Below are positions 9,379 through 63,809 of a DNA stretch of 64,000 bases, piece by piece. The position numbers were made by a program, and so were the translations under genes. The notes under the pieces are model-generated. The model was not told the DNA's origin. It ran no database searches and saw only the letters and a list, made by a program, of their open reading frames with translations. The stretch is from positions 1-64,000 of IMG/VR virus record IMGVR_UViG_3300045747_000583; one strand, given 5' to 3'. This stretch comes from a virus. Numbering within the stretch: position 1 is the stretch's first letter; the number at the start of each line of letters is the position of its first letter.

Positions 9379-10434
9379 TCACGCAGCCGCCTCGCACAGC
9401 GCGAGGTTCGACTGCAACCGCGGGACCTGGTCGCTCGGCGCCAGCTCGATCGCGGCCCTGGTCAGCTCGGCCGCTCGGGCGGGATAGCCGAGGTAGTACG
9501 ACGCCACCCCGGCGACGTCGTACGGCGCCCAGCCCCAGGCATCCGGCTCGCAGAGGTAGACCATCGGCTTCTCGGTGATCGCCAGCGCCCGCTCGGCCGC
9601 CTCCAGCGCTTCGCTCCAGTCGCGGCTGGCTAGCCGGTCCCTCGAGAGATCCACCCACGGCTCGCGGAGGAACGGGCAGAGTTCCGTGGCGGCGACGAAC
9701 CAGCGCGAGTCCCCTGTGATCTTCCCGAGGTAGCGCATCGAGGAAGCCCGCTCCGGCGCCCACACGGAGCTCGGCAGCGCGAGGTGCCGCCGGAACTCCG
9801 CCTCCGCGGCCCCGGGCTGGCCGGAGAAGAACAGGTCGCGAGCGTAGTAGTAGGCGTTCCGGTCGTTGTGCGGGTCTTCAGCGACGGCCATCGCGAGCAG
9901 CGGGAGGTACTGCGCCCGACTCTTGGCTGGGTCCGGGTGGTGGTGGATCTCGAGGTCGACGTAGCCTTCGATCTGGACCTGCCCACCGTACGCGGAGCAG
10001 GTCTCGTGCACGGGTCCGCGCCAGCGGTATCCGCGCCGAGCGTGGATCTTGTCCCCTCCGTACTGCAGCCCGGGTGAGCCGTCCTCGTTCCAGCTCCAGG
10101 TGTAGACGTAGCGCGGCCGGGTCAGCCCGAGCTCGAAGCCCGCCTCGAGCGCGGCCCGCCAGCCCGGTACGAGGACCTCGTCGAGGTCGAGCGCCACGCA
10201 GTAGTCGACATCGGCGCTGACGGCCGCAAGAGCGGCGTTCCGCGCGTCGTCGAACCGCCAAGGGGCGATCGTACCGTAGACCACCCGGCAGCCCGCTTCG
10301 GAGGCCTTCGTGGCCGTTTCGTCGGTACTCCCGGTGTCGAGCAGGACGATCTCGTCCGCCTCAGCGGCGCTGGCGGCCCAACGCTCGACGAACGCCTCCT
10401 CGTTAAGCGCGATGGCGTAGACAGCGACCTTCAT
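9379..10434 (-). CDS. Family-2 glycosyltransferase with C-terminal helical repeats (351 aa)
   Basis: Residues 1-120 show a GT-A fold signature: VAVYAIALNEEAFVERW, then DEIVLLDTGSTDET (the D/GSTD motif) and CVALDLDEVL (DxD-type metal site), followed by W-rich acceptor-domain sequence (YTWSWNEDGSP) and a VHETCSAYGG block. The last 150 residues look like TPR-type helices (ALEAAERALAITEK). ATG 10434 overlaps the tail-protein stop (TGATG). Its place inside the tail operon suggests it glycosylates a virion protein, for example the collagen-like fibre or tail fibre; this is inference. Confidence 0.82.
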   Translation of the reverse strand: MKVAVYAIALNEEAFVERWAASAAEADEIVLLDTGSTDETATKASEAGCRVVYGTIAPWRFDDARNAALAAVSADVDYCVALDLDEVLVPGWRAALEAGFELGLTRPRYVYTWSWNEDGSPGLQYGGDKIHARRGYRWRGPVHETCSAYGGQVQIEGYVDLEIHHHPDPAKSRAQYLPLLAMAVAEDPHNDRNAYYYARDLFFSGQPGAAEAEFRRHLALPSSVWAPERASSMRYLGKITGDSRWFVAATELCPFLREPWVDLSRDRLASRDWSEALEAAERALAITEKPMVYLCEPDAWGWAPYDVAGVASYYLGYPARAAELTRAAIELAPSDQVPRLQSNLALCEAAA

Positions 10435-11327
10435 CAGACCCACTTCGTATAGGTGATCTTGAGCAGCGGCGGACTCGACTGGTTCGGGCCCCGGAAGTAC
10501 CCGTAGTACTCGAGCGCGGTGGACGGACCTGGCCCGACCACGACCCCGTGGGTCGTGCTGGGCCAGTCGTCGGCCATCGCCGTGATGTTGCACCACTTCC
10601 CGCCGGACTTCGTCGACCAAGCCACGCGGACCTCGTCCTCGGCCGCGCTCGCGCCCGTGTGCGTGGCCGGTTCTGAGGTGAGGATGTGGTACCCGATCGA
10701 GGCGGTGCCCCCGGAGTCCGGCCCCCAGTGAATCGCGTAGAGCCACAGCTCAACCTTCGTCACCGTCGCGCCGGAGAGGTCAGACTGGATCGTAGCCGGG
10801 AACCCGATCAGGCTGCGCTGGTTCCCGTTGGTGCTGTCGAACTGACCCTGGTGCAGTTCGTCCGTCGCGCGCTTGTCGCCGTCCCCCTGGTACGAAGCTG
10901 CCCAGCTTGGCGCGTAGTTCTTGACGAACGTGGTCAGGACCTTCCGGACGACCGTCTTCGACGCCGAGGTCGAGGCCAGGTTTCCGGCTCCCGGGGTGTA
11001 GACCGCACGCCAGCTCCGGCTTGCCGCCTCGGTGTTCCCGGTGCGTGACCACGCTCCGGCAGAGACGGCGACGGCTGCGCCCGAGTTGATCCAGCTGCCG
11101 CTGTAGTACTGGACTTGGACCGTGCCGTTCGTGACGTTCGCCCCAGCGAGCGTCTTGACCGTGCCGCTGACGGTGAAGGCGGTATCACCGTTGGTAGAAG
11201 CCGGGACCGACGTCATCACCGTGGCAGTAGCGGCTGAGCCAGCGACGTTGAACGCCGCAGCCACGGGAGCGGCTGACGGGCGCCAGGCAGCGCCGTCCCA
11301 CCACTTGACTCGATCGTAGGCGGCCAT
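10434..11327 (-). CDS. Minor tail protein with Ig-like domain (297 aa)
   Basis: ATG 11327 overlaps the stop of the fibre gene. The N-terminus KWWDGAAWRPS is a motif found at the start of actinophage minor tail proteins. Residues 35-125 look like a bacterial Ig-like repeat (TVSGTVKTLAGANV, GTVQVQYYSGSW). Residues 130-297 resemble a carbohydrate-binding or adhesin beta-sandwich (KVELWLYAIHWGPDSGGTA). It likely contributes to host-surface binding. Confidence 0.7.
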   Translation of the reverse strand: MAAYDRVKWWDGAAWRPSAAPVAAAFNVAGSAATATVMTSVPASTNGDTAFTVSGTVKTLAGANVTNGTVQVQYYSGSWINSGAAVAVSAGAWSRTGNTEAASRSWRAVYTPGAGNLASTSASKTVVRKVLTTFVKNYAPSWAASYQGDGDKRATDELHQGQFDSTNGNQRSLIGFPATIQSDLSGATVTKVELWLYAIHWGPDSGGTASIGYHILTSEPATHTGASAAEDEVRVAWSTKSGGKWCNITAMADDWPSTTHGVVVGPGPSTALEYYGYFRGPNQSSPPLLKITYTKWV

Positions 11328-32959: not shown

Positions 32960-35236
32960 TCACCCTCCGAGCGGGTAGGTCGTCTGATCCGGTCCGACGC
33001 AGACGACCAGCGAGCCGAAGTCCACGAGGACGGGGTCGTCCAGCACAGGATCGAGGCCGGAGCCGTCCTTCGGGGCGTAGGCCAGAGTCATGTGCGGGGT
33101 GAAGCCGTGGTCGGAGCGCGGCTCAGCGCCGTAATCCGAGAGCTCCGAGACGAGATCTTGGCGGGCCTCGGAGAGCCCCGGCGCGTCGAGCGCGAGCCAG
33201 ATCGGGTCGCCCTCCTCGTCCGAACCGAGGAACCGGCCGTAACCGCCGAGCTCACCTCCGATCGGGGCGGTCCGACCCGCCACGTTCGCGACCGCGGCGT
33301 GCAACGAGCTGATCTCCTCGTCGGAGAGCTCATCAACGTCGCCGTGGTAGCTGAGTGTGATGTGCAGGTCCTCCGGCGGCTCGCCGCCCTCGAGGGCCAG
33401 CCTCGACGCGACCTCCGGGGGCGGGTACAGCGCCACCATCACGCCGGAGGGGTGCCGGTCACCCGCAGCATGCAGGGCCTTCTTGGCCTTCCCGCCGTGC
33501 GCGTTCTTCCCCGGCCACGTGCCCGTCGCGATCTTGTGCAGGTTCGCGCACGCGCCTGCGAGCTGCCCGGGCTTGAGGTACTTCGCGAGCTGCTTCCGGC
33601 AGCGGTTGAAGTCACCGCCGGTACCCCAACGGATCTTCGCCGCGCCCTTCCCGTGCGCCCAGTAGCTCGAGAGCTTGTTAGGCATCGAGGAGGTGGCGGG
33701 CGGGTTGGCGCCAGCAGCCAGCAGGGCGAGGCGCTGCTGCCGCGTCATCGTCGGGACTCCGGCGGACGCCTTCACCGTGGACCTCAGCTTCAGCTTCGTC
33801 CTTTCCCGGGCGTGACGCCGCGACAGCGCGAGCTGCGAGACCTTCCGCGACTGCGCGCGCAACCCGAGGTTCTCCTCCATCGACCGGATCTTGAACGCCT
33901 CGGCGTTCTCTGCGCTGTCCGCGTCGTACTTCTTCCGTCGACCGAGCTCGGCCTGCATGCGCAGGCCCAGCAGCATGTTGACCTGGGTCGGGTCGCGCCC
34001 CTCGTTGAGCAGCTTGACCAGCTGGTCGCCGATGCCGGTGTCGAACTTGGCCCGACGCTGCTTCTCCGCGAAGTCTCCCTTCGCCTGGTCGAGCCTGGCT
34101 CGGTCGATGCTGTCTGCGGTGTCAGCCTGGCGCTTCGCCAGCGCCTGCTGCGCGGCCTCGGTCACGGGGTCGGAGCCGGGCGCCCCCGCGCCCCCGCCTG
34201 CGCCACCGCTGCGCTTGCTCTTGACCTTCGCTGCGGCCTTCTTCTTCTTCTCGACCGCGGTGACCCCGGCGGGCCGCTTCCCGCCTCTCAGGATATAGTT
34301 CCCCATCGCGTCGGCTCGGGTGTTCCCGGACGGGGCGACGCCACCGTCAGTGCTGGCCCTCTTCCCGCCGTCCTTCTTTGCGAACTTGCCAGCCTCACGC
34401 GGGTGCAGATCTTCGGTCCACGCACCAGCCGCGGTCATCGCCGCGTCTTCGGTCTTCGGCGGGTTCGCCTGGTCGTAGTCGTCGATCTGCGCGACCACGG
34501 CGGCGAGGTGCTCCGGTTCGATCGCGACGATCGCGGGAGGGTCGACCGAGGTCAGCTTCGGCAGCAGGTCCTCAGCGGGCTTCCAGGCTGCGGCTGAGCG
34601 GCGGTAGACGCTGGGCCCGGCCATCACGAAGAACAGGTCGAGTACAGCGCTGGTGTCGAGGTCGTCGACTACTGCGTAGACCTTGGCGCCGGGCGGGAGC
34701 GGCGGAGGCTGCTCCTCGTCGTCGTTGACCTCGTCCGCAGCGGCAGTCAGCGTGAGCGGGATCCCGGGCTCCTGCAGGTAGCCCCGGGGCCGGGTCGCGC
34801 GCAGCACCAGCGATCCACCGCTCCCGATCGCGTCGAGCGCCTGCGCGAGCAGGTCCCGGTCGCTGGTGAGATCGACGAAGTCGTACCCGACCGGCTCGAG
34901 CTCAGCCGGGACGACCTCCCAGGCCGAGCCCTGCCAGCGGGTCATGGTCGCGTCGGCTGGGTCCTGGCGGACGATGTGCACGACGGTCGGCGTCTCGGAG
35001 TCGGGGCGGAACAGGCCGCGGTAGCTGCAGCCAGGCATGTCATCAACCCCAGCGGCGGTCAGCGCCTCCTCACGTACGACTCCGGAGCGCGCGTCGATCC
35101 GGTCGCAGATCGCCTCGGCCCAGCCCGAGGCTTCGGCGCCGGACGCGGCGATCACCCGCAGCGCCTCCTCAGTCACCGTGGGCCGTCCGACCCCGGGGAT
35201 GAGCCGGGTCGGCACCGGGTACGTCCTAGATCCCAC
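32960..35236 (-). CDS. Large head-region protein with C-terminal 2H phosphoesterase domain (758 aa)
   Basis: GTG 35236 has GGAGG upstream and removes a non-coding leader. Residues 1-260 are an alpha/beta domain. LHPREAGKFA near 280 matches a motif in the two giant proteins. Residues 320-500 are helical and basic. Around 520-580 lies a block seen in actinophage head proteins (YWAHGKGAAKIRWGTGGDF ... KYLKPGQ). Residues 600-758 form a 2H phosphoesterase fold with both signature motifs: HITL near 624 and HMTL near 715 (DLHITLSYHGD; GFTPHMTLAY). These enzymes cut or ligate cyclic and 2'-5' phosphodiesters. It may be packaged in the head and delivered on infection. Confidence 0.75.
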   Translation of the reverse strand: MGSRTYPVPTRLIPGVGRPTVTEEALRVIAASGAEASGWAEAICDRIDARSGVVREEALTAAGVDDMPGCSYRGLFRPDSETPTVVHIVRQDPADATMTRWQGSAWEVVPAELEPVGYDFVDLTSDRDLLAQALDAIGSGGSLVLRATRPRGYLQEPGIPLTLTAAADEVNDDEEQPPPLPPGAKVYAVVDDLDTSAVLDLFFVMAGPSVYRRSAAAWKPAEDLLPKLTSVDPPAIVAIEPEHLAAVVAQIDDYDQANPPKTEDAAMTAAGAWTEDLHPREAGKFAKKDGGKRASTDGGVAPSGNTRADAMGNYILRGGKRPAGVTAVEKKKKAAAKVKSKRSGGAGGGAGAPGSDPVTEAAQQALAKRQADTADSIDRARLDQAKGDFAEKQRRAKFDTGIGDQLVKLLNEGRDPTQVNMLLGLRMQAELGRRKKYDADSAENAEAFKIRSMEENLGLRAQSRKVSQLALSRRHARERTKLKLRSTVKASAGVPTMTRQQRLALLAAGANPPATSSMPNKLSSYWAHGKGAAKIRWGTGGDFNRCRKQLAKYLKPGQLAGACANLHKIATGTWPGKNAHGGKAKKALHAAGDRHPSGVMVALYPPPEVASRLALEGGEPPEDLHITLSYHGDVDELSDEEISSLHAAVANVAGRTAPIGGELGGYGRFLGSDEEGDPIWLALDAPGLSEARQDLVSELSDYGAEPRSDHGFTPHMTLAYAPKDGSGLDPVLDDPVLVDFGSLVVCVGPDQTTYPLGG

Positions 35237-35254
35237 TGCCGTCCCTCCAGAAGG

Positions 35255-35325
35255 CCCCACAACGGGGCACGAGCGGCCTTTCGGCTGTCTCACGGAACGT
35301 CGGCGCCCGGAAGGCCGCGAACGGC
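35255..35325 (-). repeat. Intergenic structured element, copy 2
   Basis: It shares an ordered set of blocks with 4826-4905 (GGGGCACGA, CTTTCG, CTGTCT, CCCGGAAG, GCCG). On the minus strand it can fold a GGCCG-TTCG-CGGCC tetraloop hairpin, a short GCC-GAAA-GGC hairpin and a GCCCC/GGGGC hairpin. It fills the gap between the 2277-residue and 758-residue genes and may terminate or process the transcript. Confidence 0.5.
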
Positions 35326-55527: not shown

Positions 55528-56982
55528 TTAGCCTGCACGGCGGCCGTTGATCGAGTTGCGCGAGGTCACCGCGGCTGCGCCGGTCGGAATCCGGCCGCGA
55601 GAGCCGGGGCCGGAGACGCTGGTCGAGCCGACCCCGCTCCGGACCGCGGCCGGTACGATCAGCGCGGTCATCCCGTGCACCATCGCATCGAGCCGGTCCG
55701 GACTCTTCGCGGTCTCACCCGGGACCCAGGTCGTCATCTGGTCCTCGAGGCTGAGGAACCGGCCGACGTGGTGGATCCGGTGCTGGTCGTAGGCCAGCGT
55801 GACCGGCTCGGCGCGCAGCGCCTTGCCCTGCTTGGCGTGCACCAGCTTGACCGCGACCCCGGGGTCTAGGCTGTGGATGACCTCGCGCACCAGCGCCCCG
55901 CCCTGGTTCGCCTCCGCCACGATCGGGCAGCTGTACGTTCGCGCAGCCTCGACCGCCGCGGCGGCCCAGACGCTCGGCGGTCCGAGCACGGACCGGTCCG
56001 CGAGCACGAACGCCTGGCGCTCGATCGGCCGGATCTCGGAGGTCGCACCGCACACGACGATCCCGCACTCATCGCCAGGCTCGTCCGCGACCGAAGGGTC
56101 GACGCCGACGACGCGCAGCGGCGGGAGTTGGAACCCGTGCGACTCGACCCGGTCGGCGTCAATCTCCTCGAGCTTCCAGAGCGCACCCTGGACGTCGGCG
56201 AGCATCTGCGCGTACAGCTCCTGCGCACCGAGCCGGGTGCCCTCGTACCGGCGCAGGATGACGTCGAGGTAGACCTGCGCGAGGTGCGGGTTGTCGAACG
56301 TCGAAGCGGTGTGCAGCTCGACCTCGTTGGTCTCTTCCTCAGCCAGCGCGTATAGTTCACGCATAACCGGCGTGCGCTTCGGTGTGGTCGTGACGAACAG
56401 CTGCGGGTGGCTCCCGAGCCGGGTCGCGATCTGCGCGTTGTCCCAGGCGGTCAACCCGGAGTCGTCCGGCTTGTGGTCCCAGGCCGCAAGCTCGTCCGCC
56501 CAGGTGTAGTGGAACTGCGGACCTCGGAGCTGACTCGGCTCCTCAGCGCTGAAGCACAGCGCCTCGGAGCCGTTGGCGAACTCGACCTTTCGTAGGCTCG
56601 GGATGTAGCGCGGTCGCTGGCTCGGCGGGTAGACTGCGAGCAGCCCGGACTCGCCTTGGACCATGACGTCACGCACGTCGGCGACCGTGCGCCCGACCAA
56701 CGCCAGCCGCACGGGTGAGTCGTGCGGCCCGGTCTTGTCCCGGATCCACTCGGCGCCGGAGCGCGTCTTACCTGATCCGCGGCCAGCGCTGAACAGGATG
56801 ATCCGAGCCAGCGACCGGACCGCGGCGAGCTGGCTGGGCCGCCCCATGTAGTCCCAGTCGTGCAGTAGCGCGTCGAGCTCGAGCTCTACCAGGATCAGCG
56901 AGCGCTCCTCCTCCGAGAGGATAGCGACGCGAGACTCGAGGCTGAGGTCGAGCGGTGGCGCCTCAGGCAGCAGGGTCGTCAT
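55528..56982 (-). CDS. Large terminase subunit (484 aa)
   Basis: Walker A SAGRGSGKT at residues 65-73 with the downstream RSGAEW signature, Walker B-like FHYTWADELAAW near 170, motif III VTTTPKRTP near 210, and the RNase H-type nuclease start VGVDPSVADEPGDECG near residue 300. These are standard large-terminase ATPase and nuclease features. ATG 56982 overlaps the small-terminase gene by 20 bases. The C-terminal 40 residues are Gly/Ser-rich. It drives DNA packaging through the portal. Confidence 0.93.
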   Translation of the reverse strand: MTTLLPEAPPLDLSLESRVAILSEEERSLILVELELDALLHDWDYMGRPSQLAAVRSLARIILFSAGRGSGKTRSGAEWIRDKTGPHDSPVRLALVGRTVADVRDVMVQGESGLLAVYPPSQRPRYIPSLRKVEFANGSEALCFSAEEPSQLRGPQFHYTWADELAAWDHKPDDSGLTAWDNAQIATRLGSHPQLFVTTTPKRTPVMRELYALAEEETNEVELHTASTFDNPHLAQVYLDVILRRYEGTRLGAQELYAQMLADVQGALWKLEEIDADRVESHGFQLPPLRVVGVDPSVADEPGDECGIVVCGATSEIRPIERQAFVLADRSVLGPPSVWAAAAVEAARTYSCPIVAEANQGGALVREVIHSLDPGVAVKLVHAKQGKALRAEPVTLAYDQHRIHHVGRFLSLEDQMTTWVPGETAKSPDRLDAMVHGMTALIVPAAVRSGVGSTSVSGPGSRGRIPTGAAAVTSRNSINGRRAG

Positions 56983-57763
56983 CGCCCACCAGCTCAGCCT
57001 CGAAGATCTCTTCGACCGAGAGGCCACGAGCGGACGCCTCGAGCTGGACCATGGCCGCGCTGTTGAGTCGGTCGAGCCGCTCCGCGATCACCTGGGCCGG
57101 GGAAGGCCGCCCGTCGTCCTCAACGTCAGCCGCGCCGAGTCGGAGCGTGGAGGTCGGGCCGACCCCGACGCGGTCGAGTACGGCGACCGCGGCGTCGAGC
57201 CGGACCTTCTCCGAGCGGCCGTGGTCGAGCAGGTCCTCGATCACGCCGACGGCCCGCTCCGAGAGCCCGAGCAGGTGGTCCGCGACCATGCGGCTGACCA
57301 TCTCGCGGTCGGCGGTCGACATGGTCTGCGCACCGTGCCGGTGGCAGAGCTCGGACCCGGCCGGAGGCTGACGGAAGCAGCCCGGCTCGGTGCAGAGCTT
57401 CGGCGCCTCGGGGTAGAACGGGCTGGCCAGCCCGCCGACGCCGATCCGGTCCACGGCGGTGAGACCGAACTGGGTAGCGTAGTCGTCCGCGAGCAGCTTC
57501 GCGCCGACCAGGTGCGGGCTGTCCTCCCGGCGTAGCACGCGGACGACCCGCTCATGCCGGTAGAACTCGTTGAAGCTCCAACGGGTCGCGATGTGCTTCG
57601 CGGCCTCGGCCCGCTGCGCGTCGAGGTTCGTCGGCTGCAGCGCCATCCACTCGTAGAACGGTGGGATCTTCGGCTTCCGGGGCCGCTTCGCCGGTACCGG
57701 GGCAGAGCCAGCAGCGACCACGACCTTTGAGGGCGTGGGCCTCTTCGCCGGGACAGGTGCCAT
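56963..57763 (-). CDS. Small terminase subunit (266 aa)
   Basis: It directly precedes the large terminase. The N-terminus is basic (PVPAKRPTPSK, PAKRPRKPK) and residues 145-160 carry CTEPGCFRQPPAGSELCHRH, a zinc-like site. The C-terminal part has the small-terminase-type helical pattern VIEDLLDHGRSEKVRLDAAVAV. ATG 57763 lies 6 bases after a class B TACAAT -10, so the mRNA is likely leaderless. It would recognise the packaging start site. Confidence 0.75.
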   Translation of the reverse strand: MAPVPAKRPTPSKVVVAAGSAPVPAKRPRKPKIPPFYEWMALQPTNLDAQRAEAAKHIATRWSFNEFYRHERVVRVLRREDSPHLVGAKLLADDYATQFGLTAVDRIGVGGLASPFYPEAPKLCTEPGCFRQPPAGSELCHRHGAQTMSTADREMVSRMVADHLLGLSERAVGVIEDLLDHGRSEKVRLDAAVAVLDRVGVGPTSTLRLGAADVEDDGRPSPAQVIAERLDRLNSAAMVQLEASARGLSVEEIFEAELVGDDDPAA

Positions 57764-58965: not shown

Positions 58966-59631
58966 TCAAGGCGCGAGCAGCGGGTGCTCCGCCGAGGCGA
59001 TCAGCTCGAACCCTTCCGGCCCGGCGCCGATCGCCGGGAGCTCCGGGCGGTGCAGCCGGATCGGCTCGATCGAGGGCTCGACGGTGGCGAACCGCGGATC
59101 CTGCGGGAGCTGGATCAGCCAGCCGCGCTGAAGGTCGGCCAGCGTCTCGCGCAGCAGCCGGATGCCCATCGGGAAGAGCGCCTCGGCCCACAGGTCGCTG
59201 GGGGTCCAGCGCGGGTCGACGTGGCAGAAGTCCTGCTTCGCGATCGGGCCGGTGTCGACCCCGGCGTCGGCGTAGAACCAGGTGAACCCGGTGACCGGGT
59301 CGCCCATCCGGACGGTCCACTCGACGCTCGAGCGCCCACGGTGCCGCGGGAGCAGGGAGGGGTGCCCGACCAGCGCACCGAGCCGGGTCGCCGCTCGGCT
59401 GTCCTTCCCGATGTAGGCGTGACAGTGTGCCGCGACGATCAGGTCGGCCTGCACCATCTTTACCCAGGCCGGGTGGAGCTCCGGCGCCCAGCTGAGGCCG
59501 TGGCGACCCGCAGCGTCATGCAGCTTGTCGTCGAGCGGCGCGACCACGCCGACGACTGCGTGCCCGTCCTTGAGCACCTGCTCGAGCGCGGCGACGCCGA
59601 ACGACTTCGTGCCTGCAACGATGACCCTCAT
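58966..59631 (-). CDS. Formyltransferase-fold protein with altered active site (221 aa)
   Basis: Residues 1-130 match the formyltransferase N-terminal fold of Fmt/ArnA-type enzymes: VIVAGTKSFGVAALEQVLK, a central GHPSLLPRHRG block (90-99) and FYADAGVDTGPI (119-130). His90 and Asp126 align with the catalytic His and Asp of N-H-D. The expected Asn two residues before His is Val88, so the classic NxH motif is not intact. The C-terminal Fmt domain is absent or unrecognised. It follows the GNAT gene by 5 bases, so a transfer reaction linked to DNA modification is plausible. ATG 59631 was chosen over an extension. Confidence 0.75.
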   Translation of the reverse strand: MRVIVAGTKSFGVAALEQVLKDGHAVVGVVAPLDDKLHDAAGRHGLSWAPELHPAWVKMVQADLIVAAHCHAYIGKDSRAATRLGALVGHPSLLPRHRGRSSVEWTVRMGDPVTGFTWFYADAGVDTGPIAKQDFCHVDPRWTPSDLWAEALFPMGIRLLRETLADLQRGWLIQLPQDPRFATVEPSIEPIRLHRPELPAIGAGPEGFELIASAEHPLLAP

Positions 59632-59636
59632 GACCC

Positions 59637-60164
59637 CTACCTCTTGTACCTGAACCCGGCGACGCTTCTCCAATGGCCTCCAAACTCCATCTTCAAGTCC
59701 TTGCTCACCCGGCTCCCGGCCCCGCCGATCAGCTTCTGGCTGACCTGGTGCCAGTCCGGGTTCCGACGCAGCGCAGCGCAGAGCGCGGGGTGCGCGGTGT
59801 GCATCAGCGTCGGGACGGGCGAGCCGATGAAGCCGTCGCCGAGGAACTCGCGCTCAGCCAGGTGGTTCAGGAACCGCAGGCCCACGCCAGCACCCTGCCA
59901 CTCCGGGTGCGTCACCATCCGGCAGGCTCGGGCGATCCGACGCTGGCCCGCCCAGAACCCGCTCATCCCGAGGAAGACGACCGGGTCGCCGCTGACCGCC
60001 TCGAACCCGGTGTAGGCGGTGCTGAACGGCATCGGCTTCGCGTCGTGGAGGTAGTGGTGGTAGCGCGCCCACTCGAACCATGGACCCCAGCCCGTCTCGA
60101 CCACCTCGAGCACGATCGGCTCGCGCTGGAAGATCTCGGGCGCCGCGAGCACCAGCTGCGTCAT
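59637..60164 (-). CDS. Mom/COG2401-like GNAT acyltransferase (175 aa)
   Basis: The sequence begins an acetyltransferase fold with WFEWARYHHYLHDAKPMP near residue 28, the (W)xxYHYL motif of the acyltransferase half of COG2401 proteins, then a core CRMVTHPEWQGAGVGLRF (near residue 80), the acetyl-CoA-binding R/Q-x-x-G-x-G/A signature, and SPVPTLMHTAHPALCAALR. ATG 60164 overlaps the ABC ATPase stop (ATGA). In bacteria this domain is often fused to the ABC ATPase; here they are separate neighbouring genes. A DNA base-acylation role is inferred from the link to Mom. Confidence 0.75.
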   Translation of the reverse strand: MTQLVLAAPEIFQREPIVLEVVETGWGPWFEWARYHHYLHDAKPMPFSTAYTGFEAVSGDPVVFLGMSGFWAGQRRIARACRMVTHPEWQGAGVGLRFLNHLAEREFLGDGFIGSPVPTLMHTAHPALCAALRRNPDWHQVSQKLIGGAGSRVSKDLKMEFGGHWRSVAGFRYKR

Positions 60165-60853
60165 GCGACCACCTGGCCGACCGTGGGTGAGTCGAAGCCG
60201 TCGCGGCGCGTGACCGTCGGCTCGACGGCCGACCAGTCGTCGCCTACGGTCGGGACGCCCTCGAGGCTCGTGCGCAGCACCCAGTCGGGCTGGAGCCAGG
60301 GCAGGATGTCGTCGTGCGGGGTCAGCATGACGATCCGGCGTTCCTCCCCGCGACGCCACGCCTTCGCGAATGCGCCCGCCCCCACACGTGCGACGTTCCG
60401 GTCCAGCACGCTGGTGAACTCGTCGAACCAGACCCGGTCCGGACGGTCGGCGAGCAGCCGGGCGAGCTCGGCGCGGTACTTCTCGCCGTTCGAGAGGACG
60501 TGGTAGGGCCGGAGCCACGAAGGTACCGTTCCGAGGCCGACGGAGGCCAGCACGGACGTCACGGCGTCGAAGTCGCCGTCGGGGGCGATCGCGTCGATGA
60601 GGGCCGAAGAAGGCCACGGTTCGGAGCCCCACTCGGTCCAGCCCTCGGCGCTCAGCGCCCGGCCGACGCTGGTCTTCCCCGAGCCGGACGGCCCGACGAC
60701 GACGCCGATCCGCCAGCCGTCCTCCTCGACCGGGATCTCGACGTCGAAGCAGAACTCCGCACCCATGCTCTCTTGGACGTTGAAAAGCCCCAGCGCGCGG
60801 TCGACGCGGTAAGAGCGCGGGAGCTCCAGGCGGTTCCGTACCTCGATCCTCAT
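60161..60853 (-). CDS. COG2401-like ABC ATPase (230 aa)
   Basis: Walker A GPSGSGKTS (54-62), ABC signature VLSNGEKYRAELARLL (119-134), Walker B RVWFDEFTSVLDR (140-152) and a switch-His TPHDD near residue 176. The N-terminal lead-in (SYRVDRALGLFNVQ) and FDEFTSV-DR are typical of COG2401 ATPases paired with an acetyltransferase. No membrane domain is present, so it is not a transporter. ATG 60853 overlaps the ParB-like stop (TGATG). It probably powers movement on DNA or target selection for the GNAT enzyme. Confidence 0.85.
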   Translation of the reverse strand: MRIEVRNRLELPRSYRVDRALGLFNVQESMGAEFCFDVEIPVEEDGWRIGVVVGPSGSGKTSVGRALSAEGWTEWGSEPWPSSALIDAIAPDGDFDAVTSVLASVGLGTVPSWLRPYHVLSNGEKYRAELARLLADRPDRVWFDEFTSVLDRNVARVGAGAFAKAWRRGEERRIVMLTPHDDILPWLQPDWVLRTSLEGVPTVGDDWSAVEPTVTRRDGFDSPTVGQVVA

Positions 60854-61425
60854 CAGATCGCCACGACGCGGACGGTCAGCCCTTCGGCCACGAATCGGTC
60901 GTAGAGCTCGCGCTGGTGGTCCTCGTCGCGGCACTCGATCACCAGGCCGAACTGGCGCTCGAAGTCCTCGTCGTCAGGCTCGGGCACGATCTTCTCGTCC
61001 TCGTCGACGAACACCGCGAGCTCCTCGAGGTCGACGTCGAAGCCCGTGCCGGTCAGGTCGCCGAGCTCCTCGAGCACGCGGTCGAGGATGTCGCGGTTGT
61101 AGCCCGCCCGGTCGGAGGTGGCGTTGTCCGCGAGCAGAATCCGGATCGCCTCGACGTCGTCGGCGACCACGACCATGCACGGGACCTCCGCGATCCCCTT
61201 GCGCCGGGCAGACTCGACCCGGCCGTGCCCGGCGAGGATCTGCCAGGCCTGGGCGGGGAGGCCGTCGTCGGCCGGGAGCTCGCGGACGGTGACGGTGCCG
61301 TAGAAGTCGTTGGTCTCCATCGAGCTGTCGATCGCGGCCTCGTCATGAGTGCGCGGGTTGTCCGGGTGCGGGACCAGCTGCACGATCGGGAGGGTCAGGA
61401 ACTGCTGCTCACGGATGACTGCCAT
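60853..61425 (-). CDS. ParB/Srx-like nuclease-fold protein (190 aa)
   Basis: Residues 10-100 match the ParB-like fold: LPIVQLVPHPDNPRTHD, the DSSMETNDFYG position, ILAGHGRVESARRKGIAEVP, and ILLADNATSDRAGYNRD with L-x-x-LLEELG. ParB-fold proteins bind DNA, hydrolyse nucleotides or cut DNA, and many phages pair them with base-modification genes. ATG 61425 is 6 bases from the -10, so the mRNA is probably leaderless. Overlapping or closely spaced starts link it to the ATPase, GNAT and formyltransferase-fold genes. Confidence 0.85.
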   Translation of the reverse strand: MAVIREQQFLTLPIVQLVPHPDNPRTHDEAAIDSSMETNDFYGTVTVRELPADDGLPAQAWQILAGHGRVESARRKGIAEVPCMVVVADDVEAIRILLADNATSDRAGYNRDILDRVLEELGDLTGTGFDVDLEELAVFVDEDEKIVPEPDDEDFERQFGLVIECRDEDHQRELYDRFVAEGLTVRVVAI

Positions 61426-61463: not shown

Positions 61464-61712
61464 CTACGACGACCGCGGTTGCACCAGGTCGACGTACCCG
61501 TCGCGGATGAGCATCGTGATGTTCGCGCACGAGGCGCAGGTGATCCGGTCGTGCACCGTCACAGGAGCCGGGACCAAGTCGGTCCGGATCCCGCATAGGG
61601 TGCGGCCAGCCCCCATGATCGAGACATGGAGCTGGCCGCGGTACCCATCCTGGAGGTAGATCGTCCCGACCGTAGGTCGGGCCATCTGCCCTGTCTTCGG
61701 TATCCTGCCCAT
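61464..61712 (-). CDS. Small zinc-motif protein (82 aa)
   Basis: ATG 61712 overlaps the dUTPase stop (TAATG). The N-terminal half is beta-rich (GTIYLQDGYRGQLHVSIM). Residues 38-65 contain TLCGIRTDLVP and ITCASCANIT, a plausible four-ligand zinc site with CASC. The family is not named with confidence; related small proteins are common in actinophages. Confidence 0.6.
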   Translation of the reverse strand: MGRIPKTGQMARPTVGTIYLQDGYRGQLHVSIMGAGRTLCGIRTDLVPAPVTVHDRITCASCANITMLIRDGYVDLVQPRSS

Positions 61713-62569
61713 TACCCGCCCGTGCTCCCGAACCCACGTTCACCGCGACCGTCCCCGGGGACGGCGGCGAACTCCTCCGGCGTAGCCCAGCTTGCGAAGT
61801 ACTGGTTCGCGACGAGGTCGTGGAGGATCAGCTGCGCAACGCGCTCGCCAGCCTCCAGTATCACCTGCGTCGGAGACAGGTTCCGGACTCCGGCGAACAG
61901 CGGCCCGCGGTACCCCTGGTCGATGACCCCGTCGGCGACGAGCAGGCCCTTCCGCCGCAGCGTCGAGCTCCGACCGGTGATCCGCGCCCAGACCCCGGGC
62001 GGGAGGGCCGCGCGGACGCCGCACGGGACGTCAACGAATGAGTCGTGCCGGACCACGGTGCGCTCCGCGACGTAGAGGTCGAAGGCAGCGTCGCCCTCGT
62101 AGGCCCGGGTCGGGAGCACCGCGTCCGGATAGTCCGGCTCGGCCATGAACCGGAGCGGCTCACCAGCCAGCGCGGCAGTCTGCTCCCCGACCCAGGCCGC
62201 GAGACCGGGGGCGGAGGCGGTGCTGAACGGGAACCGGCGGCAGTCGGTCGCCGACCAGAGGTTCCCGTCCGCGACCACGGCGACGGGCTTCAGCATCGAG
62301 CGGGCGGCCTCGATCTCGCGCCCGACCCCGAGCGTCGGGATCCCCGGCGGGAGCAGCGCGACGACCACGTCGGCGGACCGCAGCGCCTCACGGTTGACGC
62401 GCTCGAGCCGAGGGTCCGGGGAGACCTGCGGGTGGACCAGGAACGCGCGCTCCGGACGGTAGACCAGGTGCTCCTGGAACCGAAGCTCGGAATCGATCTC
62501 GTCGAGGACGTGGTGCCAGCCGTCATCCTCTCCGGACCGGTCGACGGGTCGCGCCCTGTAGACGAACAT
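61712..62569 (-). CDS. Nucleoside 2-deoxyribosyltransferase-like / dUTPase fusion (285 aa)
   Basis: Residues 1-130 look like a nucleoside-deoxyribosyltransferase-type domain: FVYRARPVDRSG, SADVVVALLPPGIPTLGVGREIEAA (the D..VA.L ... G.EIE.A signature). Residues 140-285 are a full dUTPase: motif 1 DAAFDLYV, motif 2 GRSSTLRRKGL, motif 3 GVIDQGYRGPLFAGVRN, motif 4 ERVAQLILH, and motif 5 GRGERGFGSTG. dUTPase hydrolyses dUTP to dUMP, lowering uracil in DNA; the partner domain may trim or swap bases. The fusion couples nucleotide-pool steps. Whether the N-terminal active site is intact is unclear. Overlap TGATG with the upstream gene. Confidence 0.88.
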   Translation of the reverse strand: MFVYRARPVDRSGEDDGWHHVLDEIDSELRFQEHLVYRPERAFLVHPQVSPDPRLERVNREALRSADVVVALLPPGIPTLGVGREIEAARSMLKPVAVVADGNLWSATDCRRFPFSTASAPGLAAWVGEQTAALAGEPLRFMAEPDYPDAVLPTRAYEGDAAFDLYVAERTVVRHDSFVDVPCGVRAALPPGVWARITGRSSTLRRKGLLVADGVIDQGYRGPLFAGVRNLSPTQVILEAGERVAQLILHDLVANQYFASWATPEEFAAVPGDGRGERGFGSTGG

Positions 62570-62960: not shown

Positions 62961-63287
62961 TCAGAGCACGCTGTGGTACTCCTCGTGGTAAGCCCGGGCG
63001 GCCCGCGAGAGCTGGATCCGATAGATCCCCTCGACGTACCTGGTGGCCGTCGCGGCGTCGCCCGCCTCCCACGCCCTCCGAGCCTCTTCGTACTTGGCCG
63101 GATCGCCGGTCTTGGCGAACAGCAGCGCCGCCCACACCGTCATCCCCGGGTGCATCGGCGTACGCTCACGCAGCCGCCGCATCGTCCAGTGGTAGAGCCA
63201 GTTCGGCAGCTGGTTCGCCGCCTGCGACTTCGCGATGAGGATCGCCTCAGCGTAGTCACGCTCGGTGACCTCACTCTCGTCAGCCAT
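62961..63287 (-). CDS. Hypothetical helical protein (108 aa)
   Basis: ATG 63287 overlaps the upstream stop by 8 bases. The whole chain is helical with several W/Y residues (LPNWLYHWTMRRLRERTP, VWAALLFAKTGDPAKYEEARRAWEAG, YRIQLSRAARAYHEEYH). No family or motif is recognised. It may be a small phage regulator or structural helper. Confidence 0.55.
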   Translation of the reverse strand: MADESEVTERDYAEAILIAKSQAANQLPNWLYHWTMRRLRERTPMHPGMTVWAALLFAKTGDPAKYEEARRAWEAGDAATATRYVEGIYRIQLSRAARAYHEEYHSVL

Positions 63288-63561
63288 TGGTCCCCTCCTC
63301 CTCTCGCCGAGCGATCGATGCGTTGGCGAAGAACACGACCTCGTCGAGGTGCGTGAGTGCGAGCGCCTGCTCCCGGCTGGCGGGGGTCAGCTCCACGATC
63401 AGCCGGGCCAGGTGCAGCGCCCCGGAGCGGAGCGCGACGTAGCGCTCGGGCTGATCGCCCGTCGGTGCGTGGTAGCTGAACCGCGTGAGCAGCTCCTCGT
63501 CGGTCAGGAGCGCGTCAGTCCGGATGGTGACCTCCACCGGGATCTTCGGCATCTGGGCCAT
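63280..63561 (-). CDS. Acb2/Tad1-like cyclic-nucleotide sponge candidate (93 aa)
   Basis: Residues 25-85 contain the pattern common to phage Acb2/Tad1 hairpin proteins: TRFSYHAPTGDQPERY, ALRSGALHLARLIVELTP, SREQALALTHLDEV and FFANASIARREEEG (the A-N-A/S-x-I-A-R end). Those proteins bind cyclic oligonucleotides or cADPR-type signals and so block CBASS or Thoeris defence. The 20-residue N-terminus is extra. ATG 63561 was chosen in a TGATG overlap. Function by motif likeness only; the ligand is unknown. Confidence 0.65.
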   Translation of the reverse strand: MAQMPKIPVEVTIRTDALLTDEELLTRFSYHAPTGDQPERYVALRSGALHLARLIVELTPASREQALALTHLDEVVFFANASIARREEEGTNG

Positions 63562-63809
63562 CAGACTACCTCCTCGTACGTGGCCTCGAAGATCTCGGGC
63601 TTGCACGGGTAGAACTCGCCCGCGACGCCGCAGATGATCCAGTCACCGAGGTCGGCGCGCATCGGCCCCTCGAGCGTCTGGATTAGCAGGAACGCGACGC
63701 GGTTGCCCTCCTTGACCATCGATGCCCCACACCACTCAACGAGTGGCGCGTACGGCTGCTCGACCCGGCGGGCCTCGATCACGACCGGCAGCTTCCGGAA
63801 CCGGCCCAT
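63561..63809 (-). CDS. Conserved small phage protein with GDWII.GV.GEFYPC motif (82 aa)
   Basis: This matches a widespread small phage/prophage protein family with F-R-K-x-P-V-x-IEA at the start, the central LLIQTLEGPMRADLGDWIICG and the ending GEFYPCKPEIFEATYEEV. I recognise the family but its biochemical role is not established. ATG 63809 overlaps the upstream stop; a GTG nine bases earlier is a possible alternative. Coupled to the sponge candidate gene. Confidence 0.7.
   Translation of the reverse strand: MGRFRKLPVVIEARRVEQPYAPLVEWCGASMVKEGNRVAFLLIQTLEGPMRADLGDWIICGVAGEFYPCKPEIFEATYEEVV

Follow-up and report, generated by a model that had tools for sequence, protein, structure and literature searches.

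A conserved four-gene phage cassette with a formyltransferase-fold protein, predicted to acylate DNA bases, in a probable 2-aminoadenine phage

The stretch of DNA analysed here, called the window, comprises the first 64,000 bases of the IMG/VR virus record IMGVR_UViG_3300045747_000583, which is 84,788 bases long. Near its end lie four genes on the minus strand, encoding a ParB-like protein, an ABC ATPase, a GNAT acyltransferase and a formyltransferase-fold (FT) protein. An earlier note, made from the sequence alone, had proposed that they form one DNA base-modification machine. The four open reading frames (ORFs) were all found at the coordinates given in it. The genes, the residues discussed below and the terminase neighbour are as follows, in window positions.

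60853..61425, minus strand: ParB-like protein, 190 amino acids (aa), with the GHGR motif (phrog_723, 1.9e-28)
60853..60975, minus strand: C-terminal tail of the ParB-like protein, about 40 aa (phrog_28816 matches residues 157-190)
60161..60853, minus strand: ABC ATPase, 230 aa, the N-terminal half of phrog_11143 (phrog_11143, 2.7e-68; ABC_tran, 1.2e-6)
60671..60694, minus strand: Walker A GPSGSGKT of the ABC ATPase (from the sequence and the ABC alignment)
59637..60164, minus strand: GNAT acyltransferase, 175 aa, the C-terminal half of phrog_11143 (phrog_11143, 1.1e-27)
60048..60062, minus strand: YHHYL motif of the GNAT (Y38 and L39 invariant in a 38-sequence alignment)
59880..59897, minus strand: QGAGVG loop of the GNAT, binding acyl-coenzyme A (acyl-CoA), of the form Q/R-x-x-G-x-G/A (Q90, G91, G93 and G95 invariant in the 38-sequence alignment)
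58966..59631, minus strand: FT protein, 221 aa, of the 10-formyl-tetrahydrofolate (10-formyl-THF) dehydrogenase hydrolase (FDH) type (Formyl_trans_N, 2.9e-21)
59356..59364, minus strand: H90-P91-S92 of the FT, equivalent to FDH His106 and Ser108 (HPS in 131 of 131 scorable cassette FTs)
59254..59256, minus strand: D126 of the FT, equivalent to FDH Asp142 (Asp in 131 of 131; numbering from the FDH alignment)
55528..57027, minus strand: terminase large subunit, downstream of the cassette (Terminase_6N, 1.8e-17)

The first three genes overlap as had been described, the TGATG at the ParB-like stop and the ABC start sharing the base at 60853, and the ATGA at the ABC stop and the GNAT start forming a 4-base overlap (60161-60164). 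The FT start lies 5 bases past the GNAT stop. The motifs named in the earlier note are all present (Walker A GPSGSGKT, LSNGE, FDEFTSVLDR, YHHYL, QGAGVG and ILAGHGR). No DNA-level similarity of the region to known phages was detected by megablast, and no Rfam matches were found near the cassette.

Searching phages by tblastn gave 69 records with the ABC ATPase and 43 with the FT, and scans of IMG/VR and GTDB genomes gave 160 further loci; matches were ranked by likeness to the window ABC, and the loci (L numbers below) were scored with home-made profiles. Of 155 viral or bacterial loci that extend far enough downstream, 129 have the FT directly adjoining ABC-GNAT on the same strand; after clustering at 90% identity it adjoins the GNAT in 103 of 125 clusters. 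The co-occurrence of these genes elsewhere, which the earlier note had wanted checked, is thus borne out, with order, strand and spacing repeated in more than 100 loci, far beyond chance. It is nearly certain that the four-gene cassette is real and conserved. For example, genes 1-4 of Gordonia phage NHagos encode a ParB-like protein, a fused ABC-GNAT, an FT and the terminase, and Pseudomonas phage Komp_PAO1_1 and Porphyromonas phages carry a 42-49 aa ORF followed by ABC-GNAT and FT. Bacterial hosts named in the record titles belong to Actinobacteria, Bacteroidetes, Proteobacteria, Planctomycetes and Firmicutes-type lineages. The distances between ABC sequences and those between FT sequences are correlated (Mantel r 0.415, reached by 0 of 999 permutations). 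As for natural fusions of the ParB tail with ABC or of the GNAT with the FT, only one doubtful 85-aa ORF (L088) was seen.

The ABC ATPase and the GNAT match positions 1-190 and 198-348, respectively, of phrog_11143 (357 positions; function unknown). Because successive parts of one PHROG are matched, the two window proteins are separate halves of what is usually one fused protein. They adjoin each other and belong to the families of the phrog_11143 ABC-GNAT (COG2401-type) system. A sequencing frameshift was considered as the cause of the split and is unlikely, since 35 of 170 loci were scored as split, many with the same two-gene layout; some of these 35 may be frameshifts or fragments. GNAT profile matches were obtained in 168 loci, compared with 171 having the ABC. 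The ABC alignment has 26 invariant columns, including Walker A, S121-G123 and D144-E145, and a weak match of the ATPase to the defence protein mad3 was also seen. The GNAT matches Acetyltransf_7 at 2.2e-4, under the Pfam cut-off. Its AlphaFold2 model (pLDDT 84.7) matches generic GNATs in Foldseek (E about 2e-5), with protein N-acetyltransferases the closest and one viral Mom model at E 2.6e-4 amid many GNATs. The earlier note had called this enzyme Mom-like, but profile comparison with eight Mom proteins by hhalign gave a probability of 1% (E 0.056, 61 columns) and the other searches gave only generic GNAT matches, and homology to Mom is rejected at the family level.

The ParB-like protein matches ParB_N at 1.4e-4 (22.3 bits, under the Pfam cut-off of 26.3). 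Its N-domain has relatives in fusions with phage DNA methyltransferases (phrog_498, DNA methyltransferase, 9.8e-20), and PADLOC MTase_II matches residues 12-154 (2e-10). Among the features of ParABS partition, only ParB_N was recognised in the protein and a helix-turn-helix was not found; no search for ParA was made. Of the 164 loci whose sequence extends upstream, 160 have a recognisable C-terminal tail before the ABC and only 65 the ParB domain itself. The ParB domain had been taken for a core member of the machine, a role not supported here, as the tail is all that is recognised in 95 of the 160 loci having the upstream element. The tail also exists as a free-standing ORF of 41-85 aa in other loci, and it is probably the contact to the ABC ATPase. 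The free-standing tail at L003:3855-4004 and L004:3876-4004 carries the annotation 'hypothetical' or 'acr candidate'; since the ORF is a conserved cassette element, its labelling as an anti-CRISPR is doubtful. In Microbacterium phage Antuna (L220:969-2121), a ParB-like gene overlaps and directly precedes a Mom-like acetyltransferase gene, and ParB-like partners therefore also accompany Mom.

The label of formyltransferase fold given to the fourth protein is right and can be narrowed to the FDH-hydrolase type. Searched by sequence against PDB, the FT matches FDH at 4e-25 and the Met-tRNA formyltransferase Fmt at 6e-14; in profile searches the values are 5.5e-44 for FDH and 1e-26 for Fmt, and the top five Foldseek matches are all FDH (E 9.6e-21, TM-score 0.79). 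The window FT and FDH have HPSLLPRHRG in common, as well as FDH His106, Ser108 and Asp142. Amine formyltransferases have an Asn two positions ahead of the His (FDH position 104). None of the 131 scorable cassette FTs has it, the residue there being G, I, V, A or S, and the controls E. coli Fmt (INVH) and PurN (LNIH) do have it; this comparison covered FDH, Fmt and PurN. The FT consists of Formyl_trans_N alone. Because the 4'-phosphopantetheine carrier domain and the dehydrogenase domain are absent, it is an FDH-like domain and not an FDH, and the enoyl-CoA hydratase-like C-domain of HypX is absent from it as well. FDH moves the formyl group from 10-formyl-THF to the 4'-phosphopantetheine thiol (PMC8748788; PMC6802093), and HypX has been proposed to make formyl-CoA from 10-formyl-THF and CoA (PMC6802093). 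An FDH-type FT beside a CoA-dependent GNAT suggests formyl-CoA as the link between them, a donor mechanism that the earlier note had not put forward, and the chances that the FT acts as a thiol-directed formyl donor for the GNAT may be put at about even.

In a sister clade, genes reminiscent of CoA metabolism take the place of the FT. Phage Jace has no FT; two genes stand there instead, one for a protein like the aspartate decarboxylase PanD (PF02261, 2e-33) and one for a protein like class III CoA-transferases (PF02515, 2e-8). The loci with such genes are:

L007:5083-6194 and L172-L189: PanD-like and class III CoA-transferase-like genes, following ABC-GNAT where other loci have the FT

With Jace counted, PanD-like genes occur in 15 loci and CoA-transferase-like genes in 19, in the same order, several of these loci being near-identical contigs. 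In seven loci (L173-L178, L183) a second ABC-GNAT copy lies beside them. The Gly-Ser cleavage site of PanD is conserved, and so is the Asp in the GDT (GD(T)) motif of the CoA-transferase-like protein, which we read as the class III catalytic Asp. Beta-alanyl-CoA would be our guess for the product of this module, and we infer that acyl-CoA donor modules may be swappable beside ABC-GNAT. No recurrent donor gene was seen among the distant ABC-GNAT relatives (L193-L210), and a donor module is therefore not universal.

Regarding the substrate, the ABC-coupled GNAT was already predicted by Aravind's group to carry out an uncharacterised acyl modification of a DNA base, in a passage of PMC7824862 that cites phage pT24, and to this extent the system is not 'undescribed', as had been claimed for it. 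The passage names no acyl donor or FT. The formyltransferase-fold enzyme, put forward in the earlier note as a new member, does look new in the literature searched, where a prior mention may have escaped us. Tenacibaculum phage pT24 is among the matches of the window ABC. In the Porphyromonas (P. gingivalis) phages phage008a and phage006a, the cassette forms the last genes of the genome (BK068090 and BK068089), and phage008a is Mu-like, the annotations at its left end including transposase, MuB and Gam. The sibling phage013a (BK068094) has a Mom homologue in the right-end slot of the cassette, with left flanks 92% and 88% identical across the siblings and right ends 81-82% identical. The cassette and a true Mom thus occur in the same slot, which supports DNA modification; the slot is that of the P. 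gingivalis Mu-like phages (L216 compared with L004 and L223), not of the window phage. As in the window, the cassette lies beside terminase genes in many phages. It is likely that the cassette acylates DNA bases. From the idea of a base-modification machine, a single cassette with strict gene order stands and DNA-base modification remains the best prediction, without a Mom-like GNAT or a ParB core.

The genome around the cassette contains genes that probably serve a further base modification. They lie at the following positions of the window or of the whole record.

Window 61712..62569, minus strand: dUTPase with a nucleoside-deoxyribosyltransferase-like N-terminus, upstream of the ParB-like gene (dUTPase, 5.7e-22; Nuc_deoxyrib_tr, 0.007, weak)
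Record 64189-65271, just beyond the window, minus strand: PurZ (NF038379, 314.9 bits, cut-off 300)
Record 68949-70940: DpoZ-like polymerase (best family NF038381 DpoZ_2, 308 bits, E 1.3e-91, under the cut-off of 350)
Record 75013-76209: PurB-like lyase

This PurZ has Ser at the Asp13 hallmark site (GSEAKG), and Ser is found at that site in all phage PurZ (PMC12884076). The best phage relatives of the window dUTPase are PurZ-bearing Arthrobacter and Streptomyces phages, and in Streptomyces phage Hiyaa the PurZ gene is accompanied by dUTPase and PurB-like genes. A DmtZ-DutZ fusion was reported for PurZ0 2-aminoadenine phages, which use DutZ/DmtZ instead of DatZ (PMC12884076). In the search for DatZ, there was no match to PF13023 or PF01966, and PF12917, the DatZ family's own model, was not searched. 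No close PurZ relatives were found in IMG/VR by protein patterns. These genes suggest that the window phage probably has 2-aminoadenine in place of adenine. PurZ was found in none of 62 other cassette or ABC-GNAT records (54 + 8), several of them fragments; the Z pathway is therefore not part of the cassette, and the two systems are independent, their meeting here being unusual. With PurZ and a DpoZ-like polymerase in the same phage, the cassette may act on 2-aminoadenine DNA, and its substrate in the window phage would probably be of this kind. Two exocyclic amines are available on 2-aminoadenine, should such a group be the site of GNAT action.

Three other window genes are worth recording. 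An Acb2/Tad1 hairpin-domain protein (PF24729, 1.8e-16; 63280-63606, minus strand), about 1.9 kb upstream of the cassette, is probably a cyclic-nucleotide sponge against CBASS/Thoeris. A 777-aa ORF (32960-35293, minus strand) has a C-terminal 2H phosphoesterase/LigT-like domain (3.9e-13) and also matches a head maturation protease PHROG, and a GT2 glycosyltransferase with TPR-like repeats (phrog_13126, 4.5e-99) is encoded at 9379-10746 (minus strand).

We propose that the cassette serves to protect the phage itself, acylating the bases of its DNA at a late stage of infection. The FT would take formyl from host 10-formyl-THF and hand it to the thiol of CoA, a step modelled on the FDH N-domain, with its 4'-phosphopantetheine arm, and on HypX, which is thought to use CoA. 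With this formyl-CoA, the GNAT would N-formylate a DNA base at an exocyclic amino group. Loading of the GNAT onto DNA, or its movement there, may be the task of the ABC ATPase, whose gene is fused to that of the GNAT or overlaps it, and the ParB-like protein may activate or target the ATPase via the conserved tail. To this whole chain we assign a probability of about 0.5, and a formylated base in the window phage itself is put forward only tentatively. To our knowledge, N-formyl bases have not been described as an enzymatic DNA modification. A still broader picture is doubtful, in which DNA N-acylation would be modular, the FDH-type FT supplying formyl-CoA in one clade and PanD/CoA-transferase supplying beta-alanyl-CoA for beta-alanyl bases in the other, with the window genome doubly altered through 2-aminoadenine.

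Several observations weigh against the self-protection proposal. The FT-bearing loci belong largely to one ABC clade (2 FT clusters by single linkage at 60% identity), and the co-occurrence counts are therefore not independent gains; among divergent pairs, the correlation of ABC and FT distances is weak (r 0.11). The FT is missing from 26 of 155 loci (about a sixth), so formyl cannot be the sole donor. The window FT has Val88-Gly89 where nearly all other FTs have Gly/Ile-Tyr/Phe, and its activity therefore needs checking. No carrier-protein domain was seen in the cassette, and the GNAT has no detectable homology to Mom beyond the fold.

A different order of events is conceivable, in which the GNAT adds a group that carries an amine, glycyl for instance (the product of Mom being a glycinamide adenine), and this group is afterwards formylated by the FT, directly on the DNA, in the manner of PurN or Fmt. 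The better-known Formyl_trans_N enzymes (PurN, Fmt and ArnA) do formylate amines, and PHROG names the FT family phosphoribosylglycinamide formyltransferase. However, the missing Asn in all scorable FTs, FDH rather than PurN or Fmt as nearest relative, and the CoA-metabolism-like genes in the FT position of another clade make this order unlikely. The FT could also be a 10-formyl-THF hydrolase that alters the host folate/purine pool, with acetyl-CoA or a similarly common donor serving the GNAT. Hydrolysis was the activity first characterised for the FDH N-domain, and phages often carry nucleotide-pool enzymes, but there is no need for an enzyme acting on a pool to keep the same order and strand relative to ABC-GNAT across more than 100 loci, and the chance of this reading seems slim.

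The remaining alternatives place the target or the function elsewhere. Host takeover by acylation of a non-DNA target, namely host RNA polymerase, the ribosome or tRNA, would suit the Foldseek proximity of the GNAT model to protein N-acetyltransferases and the existence of phage GNATs acting on host proteins (PMC7824862). It is distinctly improbable in view of the swap with mom at the same locus, the methyltransferase-linked kind of ParB domain and the position beside terminase in many phages. Far less credible is a partition, packaging or defence module, in which ParB and an ABC/SMC-like ATPase would handle DNA ends or plasmid-like maintenance, the GNAT and FT being incidental. The name ParB, the closeness to terminase and the mad3 match point that way; against it stand the ParB_N score under the cut-off, the absence of a recognised helix-turn-helix, the ParB domain unrecognised in 95 of 160 loci, and the GNAT and FT as conserved followers.

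For years the ABC-coupled GNAT has been predicted without a clue to the group it adds, and the putative donor partners described here give testable guesses (formyl and beta-alanyl). Isolated carriers are on record, namely Gordonia phage NHagos and its relatives, Pseudomonas phage Komp_PAO1_1 and Jace. If acylation by this cassette is true, it would be a DNA base modification of a new class and would give phages a new means of escaping restriction, and could provide tool enzymes for DNA labelling; together with PurZ, it would make the window phage an uncommon example of a genome that combines two base-modification strategies.

Among known systems, the PurZ0 phages resemble the window phage in the dUTPase, which is like their DmtZ-DutZ fusion. 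The N-domain of FDH/ALDH1L1 is the closest structure to the FT, and both have the His-Ser-Asp triad and no Asn before HPS, whereas the cassette FT is shorter, lacks the carrier and dehydrogenase domains and has a GNAT as operon partner. The N-domain of HypX is comparable in its proposed use of 10-formyl-THF to make formyl-CoA (PMC6802093), but HypX lacks the Ser, has its enoyl-CoA hydratase-like C-domain and makes CO. Mom of phage Mu shares with the cassette the GNAT superfamily, phage self-modification and the slot in P. gingivalis Mu-like phages. It differs in having no family-level homology, in that the Q-x-x-G-x-G CoA loop invariant in cassette GNATs is not seen in the Mom alignment, and in that Mu mom has no FT or ABC partner. 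The nearest system is the ABC-GNAT of the Iyer/Aravind prediction (phrog_11143, COG2401 type; e.g. pT24), which has the same ABC and GNAT families as the window, whereas the window version has split, overlapping ABC and GNAT genes, an added FDH-type FT and the ParB tail as a constant partner.

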